A stretch of 64,000 nt of DNA from Planctomyces sp. SH-PL14 (lineage in GTDB: Bacteria; Planctomycetota; Planctomycetia; Planctomycetales; Planctomycetaceae): positions 4,916,001 to 4,980,000 of the forward strand of contig NZ_CP011270.1 in assembly GCF_001610835.1 (NCBI RefSeq), in the 5' to 3' direction. Both the position numbers and the translations under genes were made by a program. The notes under the pieces are model-generated. The model was not told the origin of the DNA. It worked only from the letters and a program-made list of their open reading frames with translations, and did no database searches. Positions 4,529-60,556 of the stretch are shown in pieces; positions within the stretch are counted from its first letter, which is position 1; each line of letters opens with the position of its first letter.

Positions 4529-4572
4529 CAAAAACAGGTCCTCCTTCTATCATAGCCGGTCTCCAGAAAACC

Positions 4573-4916
4573 CGTCCTGGCCGGCACAGCGTTGCTCGCT
4601 CAAACCCAACGTGCCACGGCAGTCTGGGGTCAAGGGGGGCTGTGTTGTCTTCTTGGCCCCCTTGCCGCCGGAGGCACTCCTGTGAGGAACCGTGGAACAC
4701 AACGGATGACCCCTTTGTGGTACCGGCGCTGAGGACTCCACGCTCGCTCTGCAATTCCCGCGGGTTGGTGAGGGGGCATCCGGCGCCGTGTCCGCGCTTG
4801 GACACGGGCTTCTTCAGACATCTCTCGACGAGAGGGCCTCCGGCGGGCAAAGGGCCAAGAAGACAACACCGGCCCCTCTGCACTCCCCATCAGGGGTGAC
4901 CCCCTGGACCCCGGCT
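4573..4916 (+). repeat. Dispersed structured repeat, copy A (full length)
   Basis: First full copy of the roughly 335-bp family. It opens with CTGGCCGGCACAGCG and CTCAAACCCAACGTG. Next comes a left arm (GGGGTCAAGGGG, a tip cassette with GTGTTGTCTTCTTGG, then GCCGCCGGAGGC). A central part holds CCCGCGGGTTGGTGAG and a small TGTCC/GGACA hairpin. The right arm is the inverted image of the left, with GCCTCCGGCGGGC and AAGAAGACAACAC, and ends CCCCTGGACCCCGG. It lies between the divergent genes larE and kdsD, upstream of both. No target-site duplication is visible at its edges. Confidence 0.9.
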
Positions 4917-9901: not shown

Positions 9902-9907
9902 TCCACC

Positions 9908-10243
9908 TGGGTCCAGGGGTACCCTGGTGGGGAGTGCAGAGGGGCCTGTGTTGTCTTCTTGGCCCTTTGCCCGCCGGAGGCCCCCTCGTCGAGAGATGTC
10001 TGAAGAAGCCCGTGTCCAAGCGCGGACACGGCGCCGGATGCCCCCTCACCAACCCGCGGGAATTGCAGAGTGAGCGCGGAGTCCTCAGTGCCGGTACCAC
10101 AATGGGGACATCTGTTGTGTCCCACGGTTCCTCACAGGAGTGCCTCCGGCGGCAAGGGGGCCAAGAAGACAACACAGCCCCCTTGACCCCAGACTGCCGT
10201 CGCACGTTGGGTTTGAGCCAGCAAGGTCGCGCCGGCAATGACG
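9908..10243 (-). repeat. Dispersed structured repeat, copy B (full length)
   Basis: Same element as copy A but in the opposite orientation, lying between two convergent genes (stops at 9901 and 10254) and nearly filling the gap. Read on the + strand it starts GGGTCCAGGGGTACCCTGG and ends GGGTTTGAGCCAGC. Both arms carry the GTGTTGTCTTCTTGG cassette in the same relation as in copy A, which makes A and B the closest pair in the window. Confidence 0.9.
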
Positions 10244-10253
10244 GTGTCTAACC

Positions 10254-12506: not shown

Positions 12507-12842
12507 CCGGGGTCCAGGGGCTCGCCCTTGGTGGGGGATGCAAGGGGGCCTGTGTTGTTTTTTGGCCCCCTTTGCCCGCCGGAGGCCCGTCTCGTCTCGA
12601 TCTCTCTGAAGGAGCGAGTGTCCAAGCGCGGACGACGTGGCGGATGCCCCCCTCACCAACCCGCGGGGATTGCAAAGCCAGCGGTGTGGCGGGAGGGAGT
12701 CCTCAAAGCTGGTACCACAAAGGGGACGCCCGTTGCTTACCACGGTTCCTCATGGAAGCGCCTCCGGCGGCAAGGGGTGACCCCCTTGACCCCGGCTGCC
12801 GTCACAAGTTGGGTTTGAGCCAGCAGAACCGTGCCGGCGAGA
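12507..12842 (-). repeat. Dispersed structured repeat, copy C (full length)
   Basis: Full copy in minus orientation, between the start of the secreted-protein gene and the stop codon of carA. It reaches to within one or two bases of the carA stop at 12844. The right arm carries the TGTTGTTTTTTGG cassette; the left arm has only a short TGA tip. The arms of one copy can therefore differ in tip content. Confidence 0.9.
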
Positions 12843-12843
12843 A

Positions 12844-13983
12844 CTACTTCGCCCCGACCATCATCTTCCGGAACTCGCCGAACAGGTAATGGCTGTCGTG
12901 CGGACCCGCGGACGCTTCCGGATGGTACTGCACGCTGAACGCCCCCTTGGACTTCGAGCGGATCCCCTCGACGGTGTCGTCGTTGAGGTTGATGTGGGTC
13001 ACTTCCACGTCGGACGGCAGCTTGTCCGGCGCGAGAGCAAAACCGTGGTTCTGCGAGGTGATCTCCACACGGCCCGTGTCCTTGTTGAGGACTGGCTGGT
13101 TCCCGCCGCGGTGGCCGAACTTGAGCTTGTAGATCTCGCCGCCGAGAGCCAGCCCAAGGAGCTGGTGTCCCAGGCAGATCCCGAAAACCGGCTTCTTCCC
13201 GAGCAGTCCCTGGATCGTCTCGACCGCGTAGTCGAGGGGCCGCGGGTCGCCGGGGCCGTTCGAGAGGAACACGCCATCCGGGTTCTGAGCCAGGACTTCA
13301 TCGGCCGAGGAGGTCCCCGGCATGACGGTGACACGGCAGCCCATCTCGGCGAGGTGCCGGGGGATGTTCCACTTCATGCCGTAGTCGAGAGCCACCACGT
13401 GCGGCAGCGTTCCGGACTTGTCACCGCTGAAGGTCTTGGGCGTCGTCGGATCGCGTTCGAGATCGTGAACCCCGTCCTTCCACTCGGACGCCTGCTTCGG
13501 AGAGACCTCCCGAACGAGGTCGTGTCCGACGATGTTCCAGCTCCGGGCCTTTTGAACGAGCGAAGCGTCGTCCAGATCGACCGAAGAGAGGACTCCGGTC
13601 ATGGCGCCGTTCACCCGCAGCCGCCGCACGAGAGCCCGTGTGTCGATCCCTTCGATGCCGGGGATGCCGTTCCGCTTGAGGTAGTCGGAGAGCGATTCCT
13701 GCGAGCGGTAGTTGCTCGGCTCCTTGCAGACTTCCTTGGCAATGAAGCCGCGGATCGCCAGCCGTCCGCTCTCGACGTCTTCGGAATTGATGCCGTAGTT
13801 CCCGATGAGCGGATACGTCATGCAGACGATCTGCCCATTGTAGGAGGGGTCGGTCAGGATCTCCTGATACCCCGTCATGCTCGTGTTGAAGCAGACTTCC
13901 CCGCAGACTTCGGCATCCGCTCCGAAGGACTGCCCCGTAAAGACTGTCCCATCCGCCAGGGCCAGCTTCGCAGGTTTCGACAT
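12844..13983 (-). CDS. carA: Carbamoyl-phosphate synthase small chain (glutamine amidotransferase)
   Basis: Supplies ammonia from glutamine to the large subunit CarB for carbamoyl phosphate, feeding pyrimidine and arginine synthesis. The N-terminal CPSase domain has the typical FNTSMTGYQEILTDPSY block. The C-terminal class I amidotransferase domain has LSNGPGDP, the nucleophile Cys270 in VFGICLGHQLLG, and the His/Glu pair in VQYHPEASAGPHD. Predicted length is 379 residues. ATG 13983 follows GGGAG by 8 nt; a TTG one codon upstream is also in frame. No carB or pyr gene is adjacent. Confidence 0.97.
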   Translation of the reverse strand: MSKPAKLALADGTVFTGQSFGADAEVCGEVCFNTSMTGYQEILTDPSYNGQIVCMTYPLIGNYGINSEDVESGRLAIRGFIAKEVCKEPSNYRSQESLSDYLKRNGIPGIEGIDTRALVRRLRVNGAMTGVLSSVDLDDASLVQKARSWNIVGHDLVREVSPKQASEWKDGVHDLERDPTTPKTFSGDKSGTLPHVVALDYGMKWNIPRHLAEMGCRVTVMPGTSSADEVLAQNPDGVFLSNGPGDPRPLDYAVETIQGLLGKKPVFGICLGHQLLGLALGGEIYKLKFGHRGGNQPVLNKDTGRVEITSQNHGFALAPDKLPSDVEVTHINLNDDTVEGIRSKSKGAFSVQYHPEASAGPHDSHYLFGEFRKMMVGAK

Positions 13984-16161: not shown

Positions 16162-16179
16162 TGACGTTTGCTCAAACCG

Positions 16180-16495
16180 CGTCCTTGCCAGCACAGCGAT
16201 GCTCGCTCAAATCCAACGTGCCACGGCAGCCGGGGTCAAGGGGGTCTCACCCCCTTGCCGCCGGAGGCGCTTTCACGAGGAACCGTGGTAAGCAACGGAC
16301 GTGCCCTTTGTGGTACCGGCGTTGAGGACTCACCACGCGCTTTGCAATCCCCGCCGGTTGGTGAGGGGGCATACGGCACGTTGTCCGCGTTTGGACACAA
16401 ACTCCTTCAGGCATCTCTCGACGGCCAGGCCTCCGGCGGGCAAGAGGGCGTTGCCCCCTTGCATCCCCCACCAGGGGTGCCCCTGGACCCGGTTC
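16180..16495 (+). repeat. Dispersed structured repeat, copy D (full length, short tips)
   Basis: Plus-orientation copy starting 18 bp after the cyclase stop. Both arms have short tips instead of the long cassette (TCTCA on the left, CGTT on the right), while the stems CAAGGGGG/CCCCCTTG and GAGGG/CCCCCTTGC are intact. That makes it about 30 bp shorter than copy A. Confidence 0.9.
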
Positions 16496-26674: not shown

Positions 26675-27637
26675 ATGACGGCGCACTGGATCCTCCGAGC
26701 AGCACCGGGCCTCCTGGCCCTCCTCGCCGGCGCCTTCGCCCTCCTGGCTCTTCTGTACATCCGCCGTCGCGAACTGAGCGTCCGCCGCCTCGCCTACATC
26801 GTCGGCAACGAGTCGGGCGGCGTGCAGAGCGTCAGCTTCGTCCTCACCGTGCCGCTCTTCATCTTCTTTGTCATGTTCATGGTCCAGATCGGACAGATCA
26901 TGATCGGCATGATGGTGGTCCACTACGCCGCCTTCGCCGCCTCGCGGGCCGCGCAGGTCTGGATCCCCGCCAGCGTCCCCGGCACCTTTGTCGGCCTGGG
27001 GCCGAACGAGTTCCCCCAGGACATCGACGTCCGCCAGCCAATCCTCCTCGACGGCAACACGATCGCGGCCTCCTCGGACCGCAAGCGGGAGAAGATCTGG
27101 ACCGCGGCCGTCCTGGCCTGCGCCCCCATCGCCCCCTCCCGCGCCTCGCGGACCGCCACGACATCCTCGTTCCCGCTCACACAGCACCTTGCCGCGCTCC
27201 AGACCTTTTACCCCCGCTTCGATCCCGCGGCGGCCACCAACGGCGCCATTCCCGCGCGGCTCGCCAACAAGCTCACCTACAGCGCCGCCAACACCCGCGT
27301 TTACCTCACGCTCCAGGACCGCTCCTCGGGGCCGCCGCAGAGCTCGGAAACCTACAACCCGTCGAGCCATCCGGACATCCCCTACCGCCCGTATGAAGCG
27401 GGATGGCAGGACCCCGCCATGCTCGTCGTGCAGCACGACTTCCGGATCCTTCCCGGCCCGGCCCGCAGGTTTGCCCAGTACGTCGTCGATCGCTACGGTC
27501 GCTACCCGATCCGCCCCAACGGAAGCGTCTACCAGATCACCTTGTCCGCCTCGACAACCCTGACCATCGAAGGGCTGAAGTCCGTCCGCCCGGTCACGGA
27601 ACCTGATCCGCTTTCGGGCCAAGGAACCGCTCCCTGA
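26675..27637 (+). CDS. TadE/TadG-like pilus-assembly or prepilin-like membrane protein
   Basis: A 320-residue protein with two hydrophobic segments: an N-terminal one (residues 9-27) and the block ESGGVQSVSFVLTVPLFIFF at about 45-64, which continues hydrophobic. The latter carries the Gly-Gly-Glu/Val-rich start and long helix typical of TadE-like minor pilins, followed by HYAAFAASRAAQVW. The C-terminal part would lie outside the membrane. The gene's stop overlaps the start of the transporter gene downstream (TGATG at 27635-27639), so the two are translationally coupled. No tad secretion ATPase is nearby. The domain call is moderate, the gene itself firm. Confidence 0.68.
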   Translation: MTAHWILRAAPGLLALLAGAFALLALLYIRRRELSVRRLAYIVGNESGGVQSVSFVLTVPLFIFFVMFMVQIGQIMIGMMVVHYAAFAASRAAQVWIPASVPGTFVGLGPNEFPQDIDVRQPILLDGNTIAASSDRKREKIWTAAVLACAPIAPSRASRTATTSSFPLTQHLAALQTFYPRFDPAAATNGAIPARLANKLTYSAANTRVYLTLQDRSSGPPQSSETYNPSSHPDIPYRPYEAGWQDPAMLVVQHDFRILPGPARRFAQYVVDRYGRYPIRPNGSVYQITLSASTTLTIEGLKSVRPVTEPDPLSGQGTAP

Positions 27638-28875
27638 TGTCTGGTTTCGAAACTGTGGACTTCGGCCGCTACCACGGCCTGATCGGCTTCGTCGCGCTGC
27701 TTCTCGTGGGGCTGGCGGTCTCGAACAACCGCCGCAAGATCGACTGGCGGCCGGTCGTGTGGGGGCTTGTCCTGCAGTTCGGCTTTGCCCTCGTCACGCT
27801 CAAGACCGAGCAGGGGAAGTGGCTCTTCTCCCGCGCGGACGAACTGGCCCGGCAGCTCCTCGCCTTCGCGGACTCGGGGACGACGCTCCTGCTCGCCTCG
27901 CATGTCGACGGCCAGGTCTCGGCGACGCTCGAGAACCTCGCCTTCCGCACGCTGCCGACGGTGATCTTCTTCTCCGCTCTGACGTCGCTGCTCTACCACC
28001 TCGGGATCATGCAGCTCATCGTCAAGGTCTTCGCCTGGACGATGGTCCGCACGATGGGGACCAGCGGGGCCGAGTCCCTCAGCTGCTCGGCCGATATCTT
28101 CGTCGGCCAGACCGAAGCGCCGCTGCTGGTGAAGCCGTACCTCGCCACCATGACCCGTTCGGAGCTTGTCGCCATCATGGCCGCGGGATACGGGACGATC
28201 GCCGGCGGCGTGATGATGGTCTACATCGCGCTGCTCAAGGATGTCCCGGGGATCGCCGGCCACATGCTGACCGCCTCGGTCATGAACGCCCCGGCAGCCC
28301 TCGTCTTCGCCAAGCTGATGTACCCGGAGGACGGCGAGCCCGTGACGCGGGGAACGCTGCACGTGCCGATCGAGAAGCAGACGATCAACGTCTTCGAGGC
28401 GGTTGCCGCCGGCGCTTCGGACGGACTCAAGCTGACCGCCAACATCGCCGCCATGCTGCTCGCCTTCACGGCCCTCGTCGCCATGCTGAATGCCGGTCTG
28501 CAGCTCACCGGTTTGTCCCTGGACCAGATCCTCGGCATCCCGTTCCGCCCGCTTGCCTGGGCGATGGGGGCGACCGGCAGCGACACGACCGTGCTGGCGA
28601 ACCTGCTCGGCAAGAAAACCGCCCTCAATGAGTTCCTGGCCTACCGGGACATGCAGGGTGTCGTGGGCCAGATCTCCCCGCGGACAGCGATCATCGCCAG
28701 CTATGCGCTGTGCGGGTTTGCGAACTTCGCCTCGATCGGCGTCCAGATCGGCGGCCTGAGCGCGATGTGTCCCGAGCGGCGGAAGGACGTCTCCGAGCTC
28801 TCGCTGCGGTCGATGGCCGCGGGCGCGATGGCCTCGTGTCTCAGCGGCTGCCTCGCGGGTGTTCTTGTCGGGTGA
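27637..28875 (+). CDS. Concentrative nucleoside transporter (NupC/CNT family)
   Basis: An inner-membrane symporter importing nucleosides with Na+ or H+. The 412-residue protein is mostly transmembrane. It shows the family motifs GTSGAESLSCSADIFVGQTE in the middle and ANRL-type substitutes near TALNEFLAYRDM, then YALCGFANFASIGVQIG near the end. NupC-type proteins have about 400 residues, which matches. The ATG overlaps the stop of the TadE-like gene, an unexplained pairing. Repeat copy E starts 21 bp after its stop. Confidence 0.92.
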   Translation: MSGFETVDFGRYHGLIGFVALLLVGLAVSNNRRKIDWRPVVWGLVLQFGFALVTLKTEQGKWLFSRADELARQLLAFADSGTTLLLASHVDGQVSATLENLAFRTLPTVIFFSALTSLLYHLGIMQLIVKVFAWTMVRTMGTSGAESLSCSADIFVGQTEAPLLVKPYLATMTRSELVAIMAAGYGTIAGGVMMVYIALLKDVPGIAGHMLTASVMNAPAALVFAKLMYPEDGEPVTRGTLHVPIEKQTINVFEAVAAGASDGLKLTANIAAMLLAFTALVAMLNAGLQLTGLSLDQILGIPFRPLAWAMGATGSDTTVLANLLGKKTALNEFLAYRDMQGVVGQISPRTAIIASYALCGFANFASIGVQIGGLSAMCPERRKDVSELSLRSMAAGAMASCLSGCLAGVLVG

Positions 28876-28896
28876 AGATCCCGATGGCCCATGTCG

Positions 28897-29226
28897 CGTC
28901 CTTGCCGGCACGACGCTGTTTGCTCAAACCCAACGTGCGACGGCAGCCGGGGGGCAAGGGGCCAAAGAAACAACACAGGCCCCTTGCCGCCGGAGGCGCT
29001 TCCATGAGGAACCGTGGTACGCCACGGGTGTCCGCTTTGTGATACCAGCGTTGAGAACTCAACGCTCGCCTTGGGAGCCCCGCGGGTTGGTGGGGGGGCA
29101 TACGACACGGTGTCCGCGTCTGGACACGGCGCGCTTCAGACAGTTCTCGACGGCCAGGCCTCCGGCGGGCAAAGGGGCGTTGCCCCTCTGCACTCCCCAC
29201 CAGGGGTGCCCCCTGGACCCCGGTCT
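28897..29226 (+). repeat. Dispersed structured repeat, copy E (full length, inverted tip cassette)
   Basis: Plus-orientation copy between convergent genes. Its left arm carries the long cassette in the opposite orientation to copy A (GGCCAAAGAAACAACACAGG instead of its complement), while the right arm has a short CGTT tip. The central part holds a perfect small hairpin, AGCGTTGA with TCAACGCT, and the TGTCC/GGACA hairpin. Confidence 0.9.
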
Positions 29227-29243: not shown

Positions 29244-30263
29244 TCAGAGCGTTTCCACCTCCGAGTCCCGCCGCTGCAGCCACAACAGCCGCTTGCGGTA
29301 TCGACCTGCCCACTTCGACTCCGGATCTCGCTCAAGGACCGTGTCGACATATTGCAGGGCCGCCTCATAGTCGTGACCCCGCGCCGCCTGTTCCGCCTTG
29401 TAGCCGAGCCAGATCTCAAGCCACGGCGCCCAGAAGAGCGAGACCACGACCGCGGCCGCCATCGCCAGGCCTCCCACGGCTCCCACCGCCCTGGGGACCG
29501 GCTGGCGGGCCGTGAAAGCCAGTCCCGTCGCCAGCCCCCACAGGAGACCCGCGACATGCGCAGCGTTGGCGATCGGCAGCAGGTCCAGCCACGTGACGAT
29601 AAAGCACACGCCCAGCCAACCGAGCAGCATCACCAGATTGGCCCGATGGATGACGCGCCGGAATTCCGGATACCGCGCGACGCCGGCCCAGAGAAAGCCG
29701 AAGATCGCGAAGACGACACCCGAGAAGCCGATCCCCGTCGATCCGCTCGCCGCCAGTTGAATCCCCGTGGTGATCGGCGCGGAGGCGAGACAGAACAGCA
29801 GGAATTTCCACGGGCCGACGGTCCGCTCCATCGTGCTGCCGAGGGTCCAGGTGGCCATCATGTTCAGGACCACGTGCCAGAAGTCGACGTGGACAAAGGC
29901 CGCCGGCCAGAGCGCCCAGTAGGCTCCGCTCCAGATCTCGTCGGCGATGCGGACGCCATACGGCCTCAGCTGGGGGATCAGCTCGGGCTTCGAATCCCCC
30001 GAGTTGACCCACACCCAGATCCCCAGGCAGGTCAGGATGATGAGACGGGTCACCCGGACTCCGCGGTCGATCGCCGGTCGCGGGATCGGCACACGTCGGA
30101 CCGTCGGAGCCGGTCCCGGAGAGGCGGAAGCCGGCGTCGTCGCAGCGACGCGGTCCAGGGCCGGCCCCGCTGACGGCGGAATCCGCACGGCCCCCTCGGG
30201 AGCCGAGGGGGCGGGGGGCACGGGAGCGGGGGTAGTCGGTTCGGGCGTTGGTTCGGAATTCAT
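29244..30263 (-). CDS. Rhomboid-family intramembrane serine protease
   Basis: Cleaves transmembrane proteins within the bilayer. After a 65-residue Pro/Ala-rich cytoplasmic N-terminus come about six or seven transmembrane helices. The catalytic dyad is Ser181 in GFSGVVFAIFG and His236 in NAAHVAGLLWG. The upstream HVDFWHVVLNM motif (124-134) provides the conserved His and Asn of the family. The C-terminal 40 residues are soluble and TPR-like (YEAALQYVDTVLERDPES). Length is 339 residues. It precedes nothing on the same strand for 18 bp except repeat E, and lies 12 bp after the TlpA-like gene, so the two probably form one transcript. Confidence 0.93.
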   Translation of the reverse strand: MNSEPTPEPTTPAPVPPAPSAPEGAVRIPPSAGPALDRVAATTPASASPGPAPTVRRVPIPRPAIDRGVRVTRLIILTCLGIWVWVNSGDSKPELIPQLRPYGVRIADEIWSGAYWALWPAAFVHVDFWHVVLNMMATWTLGSTMERTVGPWKFLLFCLASAPITTGIQLAASGSTGIGFSGVVFAIFGFLWAGVARYPEFRRVIHRANLVMLLGWLGVCFIVTWLDLLPIANAAHVAGLLWGLATGLAFTARQPVPRAVGAVGGLAMAAAVVVSLFWAPWLEIWLGYKAEQAARGHDYEAALQYVDTVLERDPESKWAGRYRKRLLWLQRRDSEVETL

Positions 30264-38380: not shown

Positions 38381-38454
<74 letters not shown>

Positions 38455-38546
38455 TTTGGAGAAAGGTTTTCGGTCGTCAGTTTTCCGTTCTCGGCGCAAG
38501 CTGGGAATCGCTGGCGACTGATGGCTGAGACCGGCAACTCCTCCCA

Positions 38547-38619
38547 GGGGACGTAGCTCAATTGGGAGAGCACCGGCTTTGCAAGCCGGGGGTTGAGGGT
38601 TCGATCCCCTTCGTCTCCA
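38547..38619 (+). tRNA. tRNA-Ala (TGC)
   Basis: 73 nt with acceptor stem GGGGACG/CGTCTCC (one G-U pair), the D-loop GCTCAATTGGGAGAGC, anticodon TGC in CTTTGCAAG, and T-arm GAGGGTTCGATCCCC. It follows tRNA-Ile by 92 bp, the classic Ile-Ala spacer pair. Confidence 0.97.
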
Positions 38620-38682
38620 TGAACGGTTGTTGAAGCTCGCGAGAGTCCTTCCGCAAAAGTTCAAAAAAGTGGTCCCGGACGA

Positions 38683-38710
38683 TTGACCCCAAGTTGTCGC
38701 CCGATAGACT
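38683..38710 (+). promoter_or_regulatory. rRNA promoter P1
   Basis: -35 TTGACC (38683-38688) and -10 TAGACT (38705-38710) with a 16-nt spacer, in the first tandem unit. Confidence 0.65.
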
Positions 38711-38832
38711 GCTCGACCCGCCCGGCCGACACGGCCAAGTGGCTCGAAAGAGCTGGTTGGAAGTTGTTGATGCGAGTGGGTTTCGGACGATTCGGTGAAA
38801 ACTGAATCGAAAGAAAAAGTGGTCGCGAGAGG

Positions 38833-38860
38833 TTGACTCCAAGTCGCCGATCGATAGACT
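38833..38860 (+). promoter_or_regulatory. rRNA promoter P2
   Basis: -35 TTGACT (38833-38838) and -10 TAGACT (38855-38860) with a 16-nt spacer, at the same relative place as P1 in the second unit. Confidence 0.65.
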
Positions 38861-38993
38861 GCCCGACCCGCCGGCCGACAAGGCCAAGTGACTCGCGAGA
38901 GTTGATTGGAAGTTGTTGGCGGAGATGGGTTTCGGTTGAACTGGCGAGAAACAGGTTGACCGAAAAAGTGGTTCGAAAAAAGTTTTCAGACGC

Positions 38994-39022
38994 TTGACGA
39001 ACTGAAACGCGAACCTTAAACT
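38994..39022 (+). promoter_or_regulatory. rRNA promoter P3
   Basis: -35 TTGACG (38994-38999) and -10 TAAACT (39017-39022) with a 17-nt spacer, preceded by an A/T-rich stretch. It is the closest promoter to 23S, about 300 bp from it. Confidence 0.65.
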
Positions 39023-39111
39023 TCTCGACCCGCACGAAACCAATCGTGCGAGCGACACCGGAAGGTGAAGCACCACAAGGAGTTACGCCGAGAGGCGATC
39101 TTCGGGTGGTC

Positions 39112-39121
39112 TGATCTTTGA
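39112..39121 (+). promoter_or_regulatory. boxA-like antitermination site
   Basis: TGATCTTTGA resembles the rRNA boxA consensus (TGCTCTTTA) and sits in the 23S leader after P3 and just before the processing stem. This is where NusB/S10-type antitermination sites lie. Confidence 0.5.
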
Positions 39122-39127
39122 AAAGTT

Positions 39128-39144
39128 GGTTGAAGCAAGTGTGG
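39128..39144 (+). other. 5' half of the 23S processing stem
   Basis: GGTTGAAGCAAGTGTGG pairs with the sequence at 42307-42326 across the 23S gene. Such long stems are the RNase III sites of pre-23S RNA. Confidence 0.65.
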
Positions 39145-39326
39145 CATCTCAAAATGGCAACGTAAGTTGTAGTTTTGCGATCTTAGGAACTTGAACGTCT
39201 ATCAGGTTTTGCGAAGCGAGTCTCGCGGAAACGCGAGATTGTATCGTGAGAGCTGTGACCTGGTTCTGTTCTGTGCTGCCGGGGTGGCTTAGCTGTCACT
39301 CGGGTTGAGCGGATTGGAACTATTTT

Positions 39327-42193
<2,867 letters not shown>

Positions 42194-42306
42194 ATTTTAG
42201 TTCTGGATCGTTCGCCGGCCCTGTTCGCAGGGTCGGACGCGAGAGCAGGATTAGGTCAAAACCATATCGCAAAGCGATATCACAGCGCCTGGTGGACGAA
42301 TAGGTT

Positions 42307-42326
42307 CCACACACTTGCTTCAAACC
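42307..42326 (+). other. 3' half of the 23S processing stem
   Basis: CCACACACTTGCTTCAAACC is complementary to 39128-39144 with one small irregularity. It lies between 23S and 5S. Confidence 0.65.
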
Positions 42327-42368
42327 ATCTTGATACTCCGGCTGAGTCCTAACGGGCTCAGTCGGACA

Positions 42369-42479
42369 TCTCGGTGACTTTATCTAGAGGGTCACACTCG
42401 TTCCCATTCCGAACACGACCGTTAAGCCTCTGGAGCCGATGATAGTGCCGAAAGGTGCGAAAGTAGGTTATTGCCGGGA
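42369..42479 (+). rRNA. 5S ribosomal RNA
   Basis: About 111 nt. The terminal stem TCTCGGTGA/TTGCCGGGA closes it. TTCCCATTCCGAACACG is the conserved loop B/C block and GAAAGTAGGTTATTGCC the 3' part. It follows 23S by 175 bp and is followed at once by a terminator. Confidence 0.94.
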
Positions 42480-48061: not shown

Positions 48062-48163
48062 CGGCAGGTTGGGGAAGGAGGATCGTGGGGCGGGCAGTCT
48101 TCTCTTGCTGAGGCGTTTGGCGATTGAGGGAGGCGTGTTCGATCTCTCGGGGACCTTCGCGCC

Positions 48164-48481
48164 GCGTTCTCGCCGGCACGACGATGCTCCCTCAGGCCCA
48201 ACGTGCGACGGCAGCCGGGGTCAAGGGGGCCTCGCCCCTTTGCCGCCGGAGGCGCTTCCATGAGGCCCCGTGGGATACAACGGACGTCCGTTTTGTGGAG
48301 CCGGCGTTGAAGACTCAACGCTTGTTCTGCAATCCCCGCGGGTTGGTGAGCGAGCATCCGACACGGTGGCCGCGTTTGGACACGCGCTCCTTCAGTGAGA
48401 TCGAGACAGGCCAGGCCTCCGGCGGGCAAAGGGGCGTTGCCCCCTTGCATCCCCCACCAGGGTAGCCCCTGGACCCGGTTC
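48164..48481 (+). repeat. Dispersed structured repeat, copy F (full length, short tips)
   Basis: Plus-orientation copy between two minus-strand genes (M19 start and DUF1501 stop). Tips are CCTC and CGTT. The central hairpin GCGTTGA/TCAACGC is perfect. Outer end CGCCGGCACGACG resembles copy E. About 100 bp on the M19 side and 70 bp on the DUF1501 side hold nothing recognisable. Confidence 0.9.
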
Positions 48482-50021: not shown

Positions 50022-50070
50022 AATGTCGAAGTTAAGTGAACTGGTGGTCGGTCTCTATCGGTTCGAGCCA

Positions 50071-50401
50071 TGTCCTTGCCGGCACAGCGTTGTTAGCTCA
50101 AACCCAACGTGCCACGGCCACCTGGGGTCAAGGGGGCCACGCCCCCTTGCCGCCGGAGGCATTCCTGTGAGGAACCGTGGTACACAACGGACGTCCCCTT
50201 TGTGGCACCAGCTATGAGGACTCCCTCAATCCACACAGCTTGCTTTGCAATCCCCGCGGGTTGATGAGGGGGGCATACGACACGGCGTCCGCGCTTGGAC
50301 ACCCTCTCCTTCAGACATCTCTCGACGGTCAGCCTCCGGCGGGCAAGAGGGCGTTGCCCCCTTGCATCCCCCACCAGGGGTGACCCCCTGGACCCCGGTT
50401 C
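50071..50401 (+). repeat. Dispersed structured repeat, copy G (full length) inside a conserved gene pair
   Basis: Plus-orientation copy lying in the 455-bp gap between DUF1549 (upstream) and DUF1501 (downstream), both on the minus strand. Tips are CCA (left) and CGTT (right). The central part has an extra short insertion near ACTCCCTCAATCC, relative to the other copies. The flanks have no gene. Confidence 0.9.
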
Positions 50402-50476: not shown

Positions 50477-53062
50477 TCACTCTCTCGTCATCGCTTCATC
50501 AAGGTTCAGGAGGCCGAGGCAAACCGCAGACAGAGCAGCGTGCTCGGGGGCGGGAATCGCTTCGTCCCGCGGGGCGGAGCCGACCGCCAGGAACGACTTG
50601 GCGTTTTCGGGATGAGCCTGGAAGAGCGCGAGCTGCCGCTCGTACGACTTCCGCAACGCGGCCAGGTCCCGGTCCGCAGGACGGCGTCCAAGGACCTTAC
50701 GAAACGCATCGGTCAACCGGGCGTCGAGCTCTCCCGCCGACTTCCACGCGTTCTGAGCGAGAGAGCGGGCAGCCTCGACCCAGGTCGGGTCGTTGAGGGT
50801 CGTCAGCGCATGGAGCGGCGTGCTGGTGGTCGCCTGACGGACACGGCAGGTCTGGCGGTTGGAGGCATCGAACATGTTCGCCGGGCCGACCGTCCGCCGC
50901 CAGAAGGTGTAGAGACTCCGCCGGTACAGGTCCGTCCCCTTGGAAGCGGGGTACGTAAAGTCCCGCTCCTTCGTGATGGCGAGCGCTTCCCAGATGTCGT
51001 CGGGCTGATAGGGATAGACCGGCACACCGCCAATCTTCGAATCGAGCATCCCCGCCGCCCCGAGGGCCCAGTCCCGCAGAAGCAGGGAGGGCATGCGGAA
51101 GCGGCTGGCCCGGGCGAGGAGGCGGTTCTCCGCGTCGCGGCTTTGCAGGTCGGGGGTAATGCGGCTCGACTGACGATAGGTGCTGCTGGTGACGATCAGC
51201 CGGTGGATCGTCTTCATGCTCCAGCCCTTCTCGCGGAACTCGACCGAGAGCCAGTCGAGGAGCGGGCCGTGGATCGGGAACTCGCTCTGGACGCCGAAGT
51301 CCTCGGCGGTCTTCACGAGTCCGGTCCCGAAGAAGTGCTGCCACATCCGGTTGACCTGCACGCGGGCGGTCAGCGGGTGCTCCGCCGAGACGAGCCACCG
51401 CGCCAGTCCCAGCCGATCCCGCGGCGCCCCTTCCGGCAGCGGCGGCAGGAAGGCGGGCGTGTTGAAGGTCACCTTCTCCTTGGGATTGAGGTACTCGCCG
51501 CGGTCGAGGATCGAGGTCTCGCGGGGCTTGGCGTCGCTCATGACCATGACCCGCGGGATCTGGTCCGCCTTGTAATTCGCCAGGTCGTTGCGGGCCTTCT
51601 CCAGGCGTCCGAGCGCCGGGATCTGTCCCGCGATCCCCGGCCGGACTTTCTCTTCGAAGTGCTTCCGCAGGCTGGCTTCGAGGGTCTTCTTCTCCTCGTC
51701 CGACCGCTCTCCGTCGGGCTTCTTGAGGATCGCGACGATCGGCTCGGGAAGCTGCTTCCCTTCGCCCGGCTTGCCATCCACGAGGAGGCCGGTCCGCCAG
51801 CCAATGAAGGCCGCGTCCGCCCCCTGCTTGGCCTGGGGCTCGAGGTCGGCGATCTTCTTTTCGAGCTCCGCGATCCGCTGCTGGTTCTCTTCGGTCGGCA
51901 GCTCGATGAGAGGCGGGGCGACGCGGATCCGCGAGGAGAACCGCTGAGGGGTGCCGCTCTCGGGGACGCGGTTGAAGGCGTCCATGAGGCTGTAGTAGTC
52001 CCGCTGCGTGATCGGGTCGTACTTGTGGTCGTGGCACTGGGCACAGGCCATGGTGAGGCCGAGCCACGTCGTCGCCGTGGTGTCCATGCGGTCGAAGAGG
52101 ATCACGAACCGCTGCTCTTCGGCGATGGCGCCCCCTTCGCCGTTGAGGAGGTGGTTGCGGTTGAAGCCGCTGGCGATCTTCTGGTCGGTCGTGGCGTCCG
52201 GCAGGAGGTCGCCGGCGAGCTGCCAGACCGTGAACTGGTCGAAGGGGAGGTCGGTGTTGAGGGCCCGGACGACCCAGTCCCGCCAGATCCATTGCCAGGT
52301 GTCGCCGTCCTGCTGGAAGCCGTTGCTGTCCGCGTAGCGGGCGGCGTCGAGCCAGGGGAGAGCCATCCGCTCGCCGTAGTGCGGGCTGTCGAGGAACCGT
52401 TCGACGAGTTTCTCGTAGGCCTTGGGGTCGGGGTCGGCGACGAAGGCGTCGACTTCCGCCGGCGTGGGAGGCAGTCCGACGAGGTCGATCGAGAGCCGGC
52501 GGATCAGGGTGGCGCGGTCCGCTTCGGGGGAGGGGGCGAGGCCTTCGGCTTCCAGCCGGGCGAGGATGAAGCGGTCGACCGAGTTGCGGACCCAGTCCGT
52601 CCGCTTGGTCTCCGGTTCGGGAGGACGCTGAGGGGGGACGAAGGCCCAGTGGGTTTCGTATTCGGCCCCTTCGGTGACCCAGCGTTCGAGCCGGGCCTTC
52701 TGCTCCGCCGAGAGGACGCGGTTGGAGTTGGGGGGCGGCATCATGACGTCGGGATCGGTGGAGCGGATCCGTTCGAGGAGGCTGCTCTTTTCGATGTCCC
52801 CGGGGGTGATGGCGCCCATGTCGATCGCGGTTTTGCGGTCGTCGAGGCGGAGGTCGGCCTGGCGTTTGTTGCTGTCCTGTCCGTGGCAGTAGAAGCAGTT
52901 CTCCGAGAGAAGGGGGCGGATGTCTCGGTTGAAGTGCAGGGGTTCGCTCGCCCGAGCGAGGTGGGGCCCGGCCAAGGCGATGGAGACGACGAGCCAGAGT
53001 GACGAACGCAATGCCAACCCCATCCCCGGCGTGGTGCCGGGTTTCCTTTTGAGACGCATCAA
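50477..53062 (-). CDS. DUF1549/DUF1553 protein with planctomycete cytochrome C domain
   Basis: An 861-residue exported protein. After a signal peptide (LWLVVSIALAGPHLARA) comes PLHFNRDIRPLLSENCFYCH with a CXXCH heme site (Cys56, Cys59, His60), the PSCyt1 domain. Residues about 155-400 form DUF1549, with SIDLVGLPPTP and a second CXXCH (340-344, CAQCHDHKYDP). The C-terminal DUF1553 has VNRMWQHFFGTGLV and the ending ALTTLNDPTW block. These proteins occur in dozens of copies per planctomycete genome, paired with DUF1501, and are thought to take part in polymer turnover in the periplasm; the chemistry is not established. Confidence 0.94.
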   Translation of the reverse strand: MMRLKRKPGTTPGMGLALRSSLWLVVSIALAGPHLARASEPLHFNRDIRPLLSENCFYCHGQDSNKRQADLRLDDRKTAIDMGAITPGDIEKSSLLERIRSTDPDVMMPPPNSNRVLSAEQKARLERWVTEGAEYETHWAFVPPQRPPEPETKRTDWVRNSVDRFILARLEAEGLAPSPEADRATLIRRLSIDLVGLPPTPAEVDAFVADPDPKAYEKLVERFLDSPHYGERMALPWLDAARYADSNGFQQDGDTWQWIWRDWVVRALNTDLPFDQFTVWQLAGDLLPDATTDQKIASGFNRNHLLNGEGGAIAEEQRFVILFDRMDTTATTWLGLTMACAQCHDHKYDPITQRDYYSLMDAFNRVPESGTPQRFSSRIRVAPPLIELPTEENQQRIAELEKKIADLEPQAKQGADAAFIGWRTGLLVDGKPGEGKQLPEPIVAILKKPDGERSDEEKKTLEASLRKHFEEKVRPGIAGQIPALGRLEKARNDLANYKADQIPRVMVMSDAKPRETSILDRGEYLNPKEKVTFNTPAFLPPLPEGAPRDRLGLARWLVSAEHPLTARVQVNRMWQHFFGTGLVKTAEDFGVQSEFPIHGPLLDWLSVEFREKGWSMKTIHRLIVTSSTYRQSSRITPDLQSRDAENRLLARASRFRMPSLLLRDWALGAAGMLDSKIGGVPVYPYQPDDIWEALAITKERDFTYPASKGTDLYRRSLYTFWRRTVGPANMFDASNRQTCRVRQATTSTPLHALTTLNDPTWVEAARSLAQNAWKSAGELDARLTDAFRKVLGRRPADRDLAALRKSYERQLALFQAHPENAKSFLAVGSAPRDEAIPAPEHAALSAVCLGLLNLDEAMTRE

Positions 53063-53115
53063 GGAATACGGATTTCAAAGTACGGCGAAACTGGGTCGGG
53101 GACAACCCAGCGTCC

Positions 53116-53165
53116 CGCTGGACCGGGGTGGCCGGGGCACGATGGGTTTGAGCTATGGGAGCCGA
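53116..53165 (-). repeat. Dispersed repeat fragment H1 (terminal piece)
   Basis: CCCGCTGGACCGGGG, GGCCGGGGCACG and GGGTTTGAGCTATGG make up about 50 bp of the outer end in minus orientation. It is the same sub-family as the piece at 19181. In a complete minus-strand copy it would lie after, not before, the arm at 53252, so the two pieces are rearranged or independent. Confidence 0.6.
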
Positions 53166-53251
53166 CTCGGCGAGTTCGGTTTTTGAGCGAAGGCCAGAAA
53201 GCGTGCCCGGCGGACGGATGTTCTTTGCGCAGTTCGATGCCATTCGCCAGC

Positions 53252-53415
53252 TGGGTCCAGGGGACACCCTGGCGGCGTGCAGGGGCCGCCCCCTGCCCGC
53301 CGGAGGCCTGGCCGTCGGGAGTTGTCTGAAGGAGGGAGTGTCCAGGCGCGGCTCGGTGCGAGATGCCCCCTTCACCTCTGCGCAGCCTGCGGGTTCGAGT
53401 CTTGAGCAGAGGCTT
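53252..53415 (-). repeat. Dispersed repeat fragment H2 (right arm and part of the centre)
   Basis: CTGGGTCCAGGGGACACC, then GGCGTGCAGGGGCCGCCCCC and GCCCGCCGGAGGCC, followed by GTGTCCAGGCGCGG. This is the right arm plus part of the centre in minus orientation. The piece at 60271 shares the CCCTGGCGGCGTGCAGGGG arm, so these two form one variant. Confidence 0.7.
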
Positions 53416-53486
53416 CCTCGGTGGCGCGTCGCTGCGGCGTAGGACCGGGCTCGCATTTCTGCGTCGACGTCCGCGAAGGGCGTCGA

Positions 53487-54194
53487 AGAAATCTCTCCAC
53501 TGTCAGGTTTCCTTCTTTTCCGCCGGGTGCGGGGCCGGCGGAACTTTGCGGGGTTGTTGGCTTCGAGGAGGCAGATCAGGAGGCGGTCGGAGTACCGGCG
53601 CCGGACGCCGACGATCTTTCGGCCGTAGTAGACCGGTTCGGGGAGGCCCTGGATCGCGATGGTTCGGGCTTCTTCTTCGAGGCGGAGGGCGTGCAGCTGC
53701 TTGAGCGAGGCGAGGGACTGCTGCTCGGCTGTCAGGGGGCCGGTCAGGGGCGGAGTCGGTGGGGAACGTCGTTTCGGTGGCCTGCGACGTGTTCGGGCTG
53801 TTCGGTGCGGGCGGAAAACCACCTGAGTGTCAGGTTTGGGGCGTCGCGTGCGGGGAGCTTTGGGGCGGCGGAACTTTTCGGGGTTGTTGGCTTGGAGGAG
53901 GCAGATCAGGAGCTTGTCGGAGAAGCGGCGTTGGAAGCCGACGAGCTTTCGGCCGTAGAAGACCGGCTCGGGGACGCCCTGATTCCGGGCGATGGTTCGG
54001 GCCTGCTCTTCGAGGTGCAGCGCATGCTCCTGATCGATGGCGGCGAGGGCCTGGCGGTAGGTTTCGGAGACCCGGAGGGCGTTGTAGTGGAGTTCGCGGG
54101 AGACGCCCGCTTTGACGGCGGCGATCCGGACGATGCCGTAGGTTTGGTAGGCTCCGAGGAAGGCCCGCTGCTTTGTTGTGAGGGATTTGCTCAT
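53487..54194 (-). CDS. Terminase small-subunit-like HTH protein with duplicated motif, end unclear
   Basis: Starts MSKSLTTKQRAFLGAYQTYG, with the helix-turn-helix of phage terminase small subunits (AAVKAGVSRELHYNALR). A typical C-terminal block follows: EEQARTIARNQGVPEPVFYG, then RRFSDKLLICLLQANNPEKF. This block appears twice, at residues 57-110 and 167-220, joined by a basic Pro-rich linker. No other phage gene is near, so it may be a domesticated DNA-binding protein. The frame has no stop after the second block. It runs on through repeat fragment H2 and into the DUF1549 gene, in another frame, for about 1165 codons in all. The end given here is only the last residue that looks like the family. 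Confidence 0.6.
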
Positions 54195-60129: not shown

Positions 60130-60270
60130 GGCGGAGTCCTTCCCTGGATACCGTGGTCACCTGGCAACGCTAGGGGCGATGGTCGAAGGGTGTCAATGTC
60201 AGTGTCGGAGGAGAGGCTGGAGGCTTAAGGCGGAAGGCTGAAGGAAGAGTTGGAGAAGGTGGCTGGCTGT

Positions 60271-60455
60271 CCGGGTCCAGGGCTGGCCCTGGCGGCGTGC
60301 AGGGGCCGCCCCCTGCCCGCCGGAGGCTGAGTGCTCGAGAACCGTTGGAAACGACGCGTATCCAAGCGCGGACAACGTGTCGTATGCCCCCGCCCCAACC
60401 CGCAGGGAGTGCAGAGCGGACGTCGTGGAGAGAAGGGAGTCCTCCCTGCTGTTTC
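60271..60455 (-). repeat. Dispersed repeat fragment I (right arm and half the centre)
   Basis: CCGGGTCCAGGGCTGGCCC, then GGGGCCGCCCCCTGCCCG and CCGGAGGCTGAGTGCTCGAG, a TATCCAAGCGCGGAC hairpin part and CCCGCAGGGAGTGCAGAG. Similarity to the full copies fades near 60455 and the left arm is missing. It lies between the cfa and M14 peptidase starts. Confidence 0.7.
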
Positions 60456-60556
60456 CGTGAGGAGCCATCGACCGGATCAGCGGCGCCGCCCCGGCCGGGC
60501 TTGTGTGGTGATCGACGCTGGGCCAGCATGGGGCCTTCGACTCAGGGAGCGCTTCC

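Follow-up and report, generated by a model that had tools for sequence, protein, structure and literature searches.

Hairpin tips of both orientations in a high-copy, two-hairpin intergenic repeat family of Planctomyces sp. SH-PL14

The locus, the element and its family

The window (the whole stretch of DNA that was analysed, 64,000 nucleotides) corresponds to positions 4,916,001–4,980,000 of an 8.44 Mb single-contig genome. Between two genes assigned by Pfam to a nucleoside transporter and a rhomboid protein lies copy E, one member of an intergenic repeat family of approximately 1,200 copies with a unit of about 314–320 bp and two hairpins (Table 1). Seven near-complete copies (A–G) and two degraded ones are found in the window. 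The window also contains tRNA-Ile, tRNA-Ala, 23S and 5S rRNA genes (38381–42479, plus strand) without a 16S gene, and direct repeats of about 330 bp at 53532–54053 that lie in a minus-strand open frame (50697–54194) and probably encode repeated protein domains.

Read in its own direction, the element has a 5' hairpin (TTGCCGGCACG ... CGTGCnACGGCA) and a left hairpin (GGGGTCAAGGGGG-tip-CCCCCTTGCC) that continues into the closing stem GCCGCCGGAGGC. The middle of the element is variable and about 160 bp long. The closing-stem partner GCCTCCGGCGGGC continues into the right hairpin (CAAnGGGG-tip-CCCCnnTGCA), and the 3' hairpin is CCAGGGnnCCCCTGGACCC. The arms are 98–100% conserved across the family and the middle about 85–90%. 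The bodies of any two copies share 83% identity on average (1st–99th percentile 76–89%, maximum 95%). In copy E, the left stem is perfect, with GGCAAGGGG (28953–28961) paired to CCCCTTGCC (28980–28988), and the right hairpin bears the commonest short tip (GGGGCGTTGCCCC).

Table 1. Positions of copy E, its parts and neighbours, the other copies in the window, and other genes and insertions elsewhere in the genome (positions are those of the window unless marked as genome positions).
Feature	Position	Strand	Description or basis
Nucleoside transporter gene	27637–28875	+	Pfam; flanks copy E
Copy E, full element	28895–29224	+	nhmmer match to model 5–328
Copy E, 5' hairpin	28898–28947	+	TTGCCGGCACG ... 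CGTGCGACGGCA; sequence, conserved columns
Copy E, left-arm hairpin	28953–28988	+	Sequence, family alignment
Copy E, long tip cassette	28962–28979	+	CCAAAGAAACAACACAGG; forward (common) orientation
Copy E, right arm	29158–29192	+	Closing stem GCCTCCGGCGGGC and right hairpin
Copy E, 3' terminal hairpin	29200–29223	+	CCAGGGGTGCCCCCTGGACCCCGG; sequence, conserved columns
Rhomboid gene	29244–30263	-	Pfam; flanks copy E
Copy A	4568–4913	+	Left arm reversed cassette (pattern 4630–4666), right arm forward cassette
Copy B	9905–10247	-	Left arm reversed cassette (pattern 10151–10186), right arm its exact complement
Copy C	12508–12845	-	Left short tip TCA, right forward cassette
Copy D	16175–16494	+	Short tips TCTCA / CGTTG
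Copy F	48163–48481	+	Short tips CCTCG / CGTTG
Copy G	50066–50399	+	Short tips CCACG / CGTTG
Degraded, rearranged copy	53112–53388	-	Partial matches
Degraded copy, 3' half only	60270–60460	-	Partial match
DDE_Tnp_1 insertion sequence, copies L161–L167	Genome 4542452, 4525034, 4489360, 2326562, 749338, 149609, 958759
Reverse transcriptase genes, five	Genome 331748, 1587736, 2772058, 3840332, 4043268

A repeat profile seeded by copies A–G was iterated (nhmmer) and run on 2.864 Mb of stretches (34% of the genome), where it identified 428 copies, 300 of them full length. A first look at the whole genome gave about 1,190 candidates, and scaling of the sample gives about 1,260 copies, or some 4–5% of the genome. 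The abundance is far beyond chance. None of the 168 copies tested overlaps a called gene; the median distance is 9–24 bp to stop codons versus 105–139 bp to starts, and gaps between convergent genes are enriched in copies (54 of 137 hold one), the gene calls behind these counts being approximate and made with a simple codon-usage method. A directional RNA element was rejected, since gaps between co-directional genes show no orientation preference (46 vs 38). A structured non-coding RNA was likewise rejected: pairing equals the independence expectation for nearly all pairs, with no compensatory excess. Outside the conserved arms, neither RNAalifold nor covariation supported a conserved RNA fold, and no Rfam match to the element was obtained.

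No match to the repeat was found among 39 relatives or 169 other genomes of the order, the latter all from other genera. Two exact repeat patterns gave no hit among 84,980 species, a collection in which records close to the source genome may be missing. Shared 6–10-mers between the left and right flanks are not in excess, and no target-site duplication was found at the repeat ends. In the broad sense the family is REP/BIME-like, a high-copy, intergenic set of imperfect palindromes, and it is probably species-specific.

The repeat is itself a target of insertion. Seven complete and practically identical copies of a 1.5 kb insertion sequence (DDE_Tnp_1) are present in the genome. Each of them occupies the left tip of a repeat; both directions of insertion occur, and the duplication is 11 bp long and has the form GGG-N5-CCC, exactly so in six of the seven. 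IS231 prefers GGG-N5-CCC targets. Two identical copies of a 209-bp non-coding element with palindromic ends (genome 1574700–1574908 and 1898863–1899071) are both inserted in the left stem of repeats, in opposite directions, with the duplication GGTCAAGGGGG. Insertion sequences that target REPs are known, including an IS4-family member with all nine copies in REPs (PMC1525189), and the duplications made by the IS4 family span roughly one turn of the helix (PMC2266710).

Tip types, orientations and inverted hairpins

Tips were called by pattern matching. The long cassette, CCA(n)AAACAACACAGG, measures 17–18 nt and is present in both arms and in both orientations. In the 2.86 Mb sample, 44 forward and 6 reversed cassettes occupy the left arm, and 42 forward and 1 reversed the right arm. 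Genome-wide, mirrored strict patterns detected 46 forward and 20 reversed forms in the left arm, and the reversed cassette occurs at three places in the right arm. The original prediction had described copies A–G and their tips accurately, as judged from the sequence and the tip table, and the tally of tip type and orientation per arm that it proposed establishes that both orientations are real, in the sample as well as in the genome-wide patterns. Its polarity has to be exchanged: copy E, which was taken as the flipped form, has the common orientation, and copies A and B, with the left tip CTGTGTTGTCTTCTTGG in the opposite orientation to that of copy E, belong to the flipped minority (44:6; 46:20).

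The short tips fall into discrete kinds that differ between the arms. Left tips are CCACG (70), TCTCA (48), CAA (43), CCTCG (35), TCA (16) and others, and right tips are CGTTG (162), CATTCTG (28), ATTCT (22) and others. None is inverted among about 225 in the left arm or about 180 in the right, and none is found in direct orientation in the opposite arm; the single overlap is the right tip CGTGG, the inverse of the left tip CCACG. Left short tips are A/C-rich and right ones G/T-rich, and the two sets are roughly complementary, yet they are arm-specific and never inverted. Outside the repeat, no cassette was found in 1.26 Mb. The reversed cassettes comprise six core variants, three of which (AAGAAAA, AAAGAAA and AAGAAA) also occur in forward left tips, and 17 of the 20 strict left-arm reversed forms have runs of 5G and 5C.

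In several copies the loop is inverted exactly and the stem is retained, as expected of template-switch loop inversion. The forward left hairpin GGGGGCCAAGAAACAACACAGGCCCCC (R6_5600) and GGGGGCCTGTGTTGTTTCTTGGCCCCC (R3_141465 and R4_200747) are exact inverses over 27 nt, and R3_115789 inverts the right-arm form GGGGCCAAGAAAACAACACAGGCCCCC exactly, with its unequal 5G/4C runs. In copies A and B, the two arms bear mirror images of one rare core variant, AAGAAGAC, as copying of one arm from the other would produce. In a few cases the stem has been corrected so that it pairs with its own partner arm: in place of the common 5' stem GTCAAGGGG, copy E and R2_78634 have GGCAAGGGG opposite the partner TTGCC, and the one-hairpin copy at R2 202641 has GGATGCAAGGGG opposite TTGCATCC. 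Homogenisation of arms and inversion of loops are two recognised outcomes of template switching between inverted repeats (PMC8604942), and template-switch loop inversions have been found in bacterial rRNA too (PMC8794818). We infer that template switching is the molecular step acting in the repeat tips. Left-arm flips may number no more than one or two; the count is uncertain because slippage in A-tracts could yield shared core variants in parallel.

The one-hairpin copies (R1 30598, R1 314463, R2 188133 and R2 202641) are reduced to one hairpin between the left flank and the right flank. The whole inner part is missing, and in one of them the stem has been lengthened so that it pairs perfectly with its own 3' partner. 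Deletion between the hairpins can produce such copies, since the two arms carry the cassette as a direct repeat. A duplicating insertion in a one-hairpin ancestor could equally have given rise to the full element, and that origin would explain why the cassette has the same orientation in both arms and the short tips are arm-specific. Before arm-specific short tips appeared, both arms presumably carried the cassette, directly repeated.

Linkage decay and exchange among copies

Across 77 polymorphic columns, the association between sites (mean Cramer's V) is 0.36 at 1–2 bp and reaches the shuffled level of 0.095 by 40–80 bp. The association of left tip type reaches no further than columns about 15 positions away; right tip type is linked essentially only to its own hairpin region, with two weakly associated columns in the middle as the exception. 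The tip types of the two arms are independent of each other (p = 0.68). When copies are compared pair by pair, identity in one segment does not predict identity in another (r from -0.01 to 0.01, and 0.04 for one pair of adjacent segments), and therefore the copies have no tree in common. A burst from a single master also predicts no correlation, but would not leave common alleles in strong local association; together, these two properties require recombination among the copies or their sources.

Tracts of identity point to individual exchanges. The three most similar of 44,850 copy pairs are all neighbours, 5–10 kb apart. R2_732657 and R2_727594, 5 kb apart, share about 195 identical bases without interruption, are 75–88% identical within the element on one side of this tract, and have unrelated flanks. 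R2_517025 and R2_511260, also with unrelated flanks, are 100% identical over 85 nt and roughly 80% identical otherwise. Copies A and B likewise have a long identical tract in common. Between copies that are not neighbours, 250 identical runs of at least 80 nt were found versus 116 expected from a block-shuffled null; this excess is only about twofold, which suggests that most conversion is old or short.

Strand switching together with recombination is probably the best explanation for a repeat family that exchanges segments and whose tips are shuffled and flipped, given the directly observed tip states, orientations, linkage decay, conversion tracts and partner-dictated stem changes. Both mechanisms had been offered by the original prediction, and both are supported here (by the exact inverses, partner-dictated stems, identical tracts and linkage decay). 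A polymerase would switch template at the G/C-run stem, either within one hairpin or between the arms of one copy. The switch would correct the stem to its partner and would occasionally copy the 17–18 nt tip in reverse, leaving a flipped cassette. Tip alleles would spread among copies by ectopic gene conversion, in tracts measuring from tens of nucleotides up to about 200 nt, and this conversion of tips would make them assort independently of the bodies. Conversion appears to act at fixed loci and not solely in a mobile pool. The wider proposition, for which we see even chances, is that the family is a freely recombining population inside one genome, at linkage equilibrium beyond approximately 40–80 bp, with tips exchanged and inverted as separate alleles through continual ectopic conversion and template switching.

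Four observations weigh against strand switching with recombination. No short tip flips on the same stems, although a generic flip at hairpins predicts that some would; selection against inverted short loops, or an inability of loops so short to invert, would reconcile the two. In the majority of reversed left tips the runs are 5G/5C, versus the 5G/4C expected from simple inversion. Mismatch repair should hinder conversion at a mean identity of 83%, and the excess of long identical tracts between copies that are not neighbours is only about twofold. The 5G/5C runs, together with the minority status of reversed cassettes and the parallel core variants that A-tract slippage could make, are what would be expected if flipping were not ongoing, with one ancient flip per arm in source copies that was later only spread by recombination. 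That history is rather unlikely, since the three core variants listed above are found in both orientations, copies A and B require a separate copying event between arms, and R3_115789 exactly matches a right-arm form. The original prediction would have given way to a simple tree with a single ancient flip; no single tree of copies exists, and the single flip is only partly countered, slippage being possible. It is less probable that the copies came from a recombining mobile pool (e.g. by template switching on an intermediate of RNA or single-stranded DNA) and were then frozen, with mosaicism predating insertion. Such a pool would fit the mosaicism, which is genome-wide and nearly distance-independent, and a genome that encodes five reverse transcriptases and two Y1 transposases; against it, the longest shared tracts connect neighbouring copies at different loci, target duplication is absent, and no enzyme linked to the repeat was seen in the one Y1 neighbourhood examined.

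The arm-specific, orientation-fixed short tips also bear on readings that treat the cassette as a unit of its own. Only the long cassette occupies both arms and both orientations, and the tips of the family's hairpins strongly attract insertions, as a tiny mobile insert entering tips in either arm and orientation, independently of any general flipping, would lead one to expect. Such an insert is nevertheless improbable: the cassette is never found outside the repeat in 1.26 Mb, no autonomous or mobilised unit anywhere near as short as 17–18 nt is known, and the orientation biases of 44:6 and 42:1 are better explained if the cassettes descend from a direct repeat than if they were inserted at random. 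Site-specific inversion by a recombinase at the GGGGCC/GGCCCC repeats, a switch resembling phase variation, is very improbable. The cassette is indeed flanked by inverted repeats, but these are G/C runs of 6–8 nt and variable length, identical stems with short tips never invert, no linked invertase or recombinase gene or recombination site was seen, and the hundreds of copies are dispersed, with a cassette that contains neither gene nor promoter.

Comparison with known systems

The kind of object, a REP/BIME-like repeat, and the mechanisms, template switching and gene conversion, are already known. The size of the repeat and its tip alleles appear to be unreported in the limited literature searched, and so, most notably, does the near-complete linkage equilibrium of the copies. 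Like the REP, BIME and REPIN sequences of E. coli and Pseudomonas, the repeat is high-copy, strictly intergenic and hairpin-forming, lies near gene ends and between convergent genes, and is a target of insertion sequences (PMC1525189, PMC3116915). It differs from these 20–120 bp elements in its length of about 314 bp, its two hairpins around a variable middle, the mosaicism of its copies at a scale of about 40 bp, and the lack of an evident RAYT partner. A REPIN/RAYT system was rejected, since the better of the two Y1 genes is more than 1 kb from the nearest full copy with no repeat ends around it, and the conserved element ends have no GTAG/CGTC tag.

MITEs are similarly short, non-coding, high-copy repeats with complementary arms; this class was rejected on the lack of target-site duplication. 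No parent autonomous transposon with the ends of the repeat was found in 34% of the genome, where long gaps between ends proved to be insertion sequences or the 209-bp insertions. The insertion sequence that enters the repeat resembles the REP-targeting ISRm22, ISPpu9, IS621 and IS1397 in that all seven complete DDE copies lie in one hairpin, and differs in that its target is the left tip of a longer repeat, its transposase is DDE_Tnp_1 and its duplication is 11 bp.

Whether bacterial intergenic repeats evolve through transposition and descent or through gene conversion among copies is a long-standing question, asked for REPs in 1988 (cited in PMC3116915). The high copy number and the linkage decay over 40–80 bp would permit the conversion rate, tract length and template switching to be measured in one genome. 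The retained stems and partner-dictated homogenisation of arms are like the loop and spacer inversions attributed to template switching in yeast genes, rRNA and E. coli quasipalindromes (PMC8604942, PMC8794818), and small inversions in chloroplasts are a similar case. In contrast to the known template-switch inversions, which have the opposite length preference, the 3–5 nt loops of the repeat do not flip, and the loop involved is 17–18 nt long, with the same cassette at many loci and in both orientations. The family is also a rare natural set of 18-nt hairpin-loop inversions at many loci.
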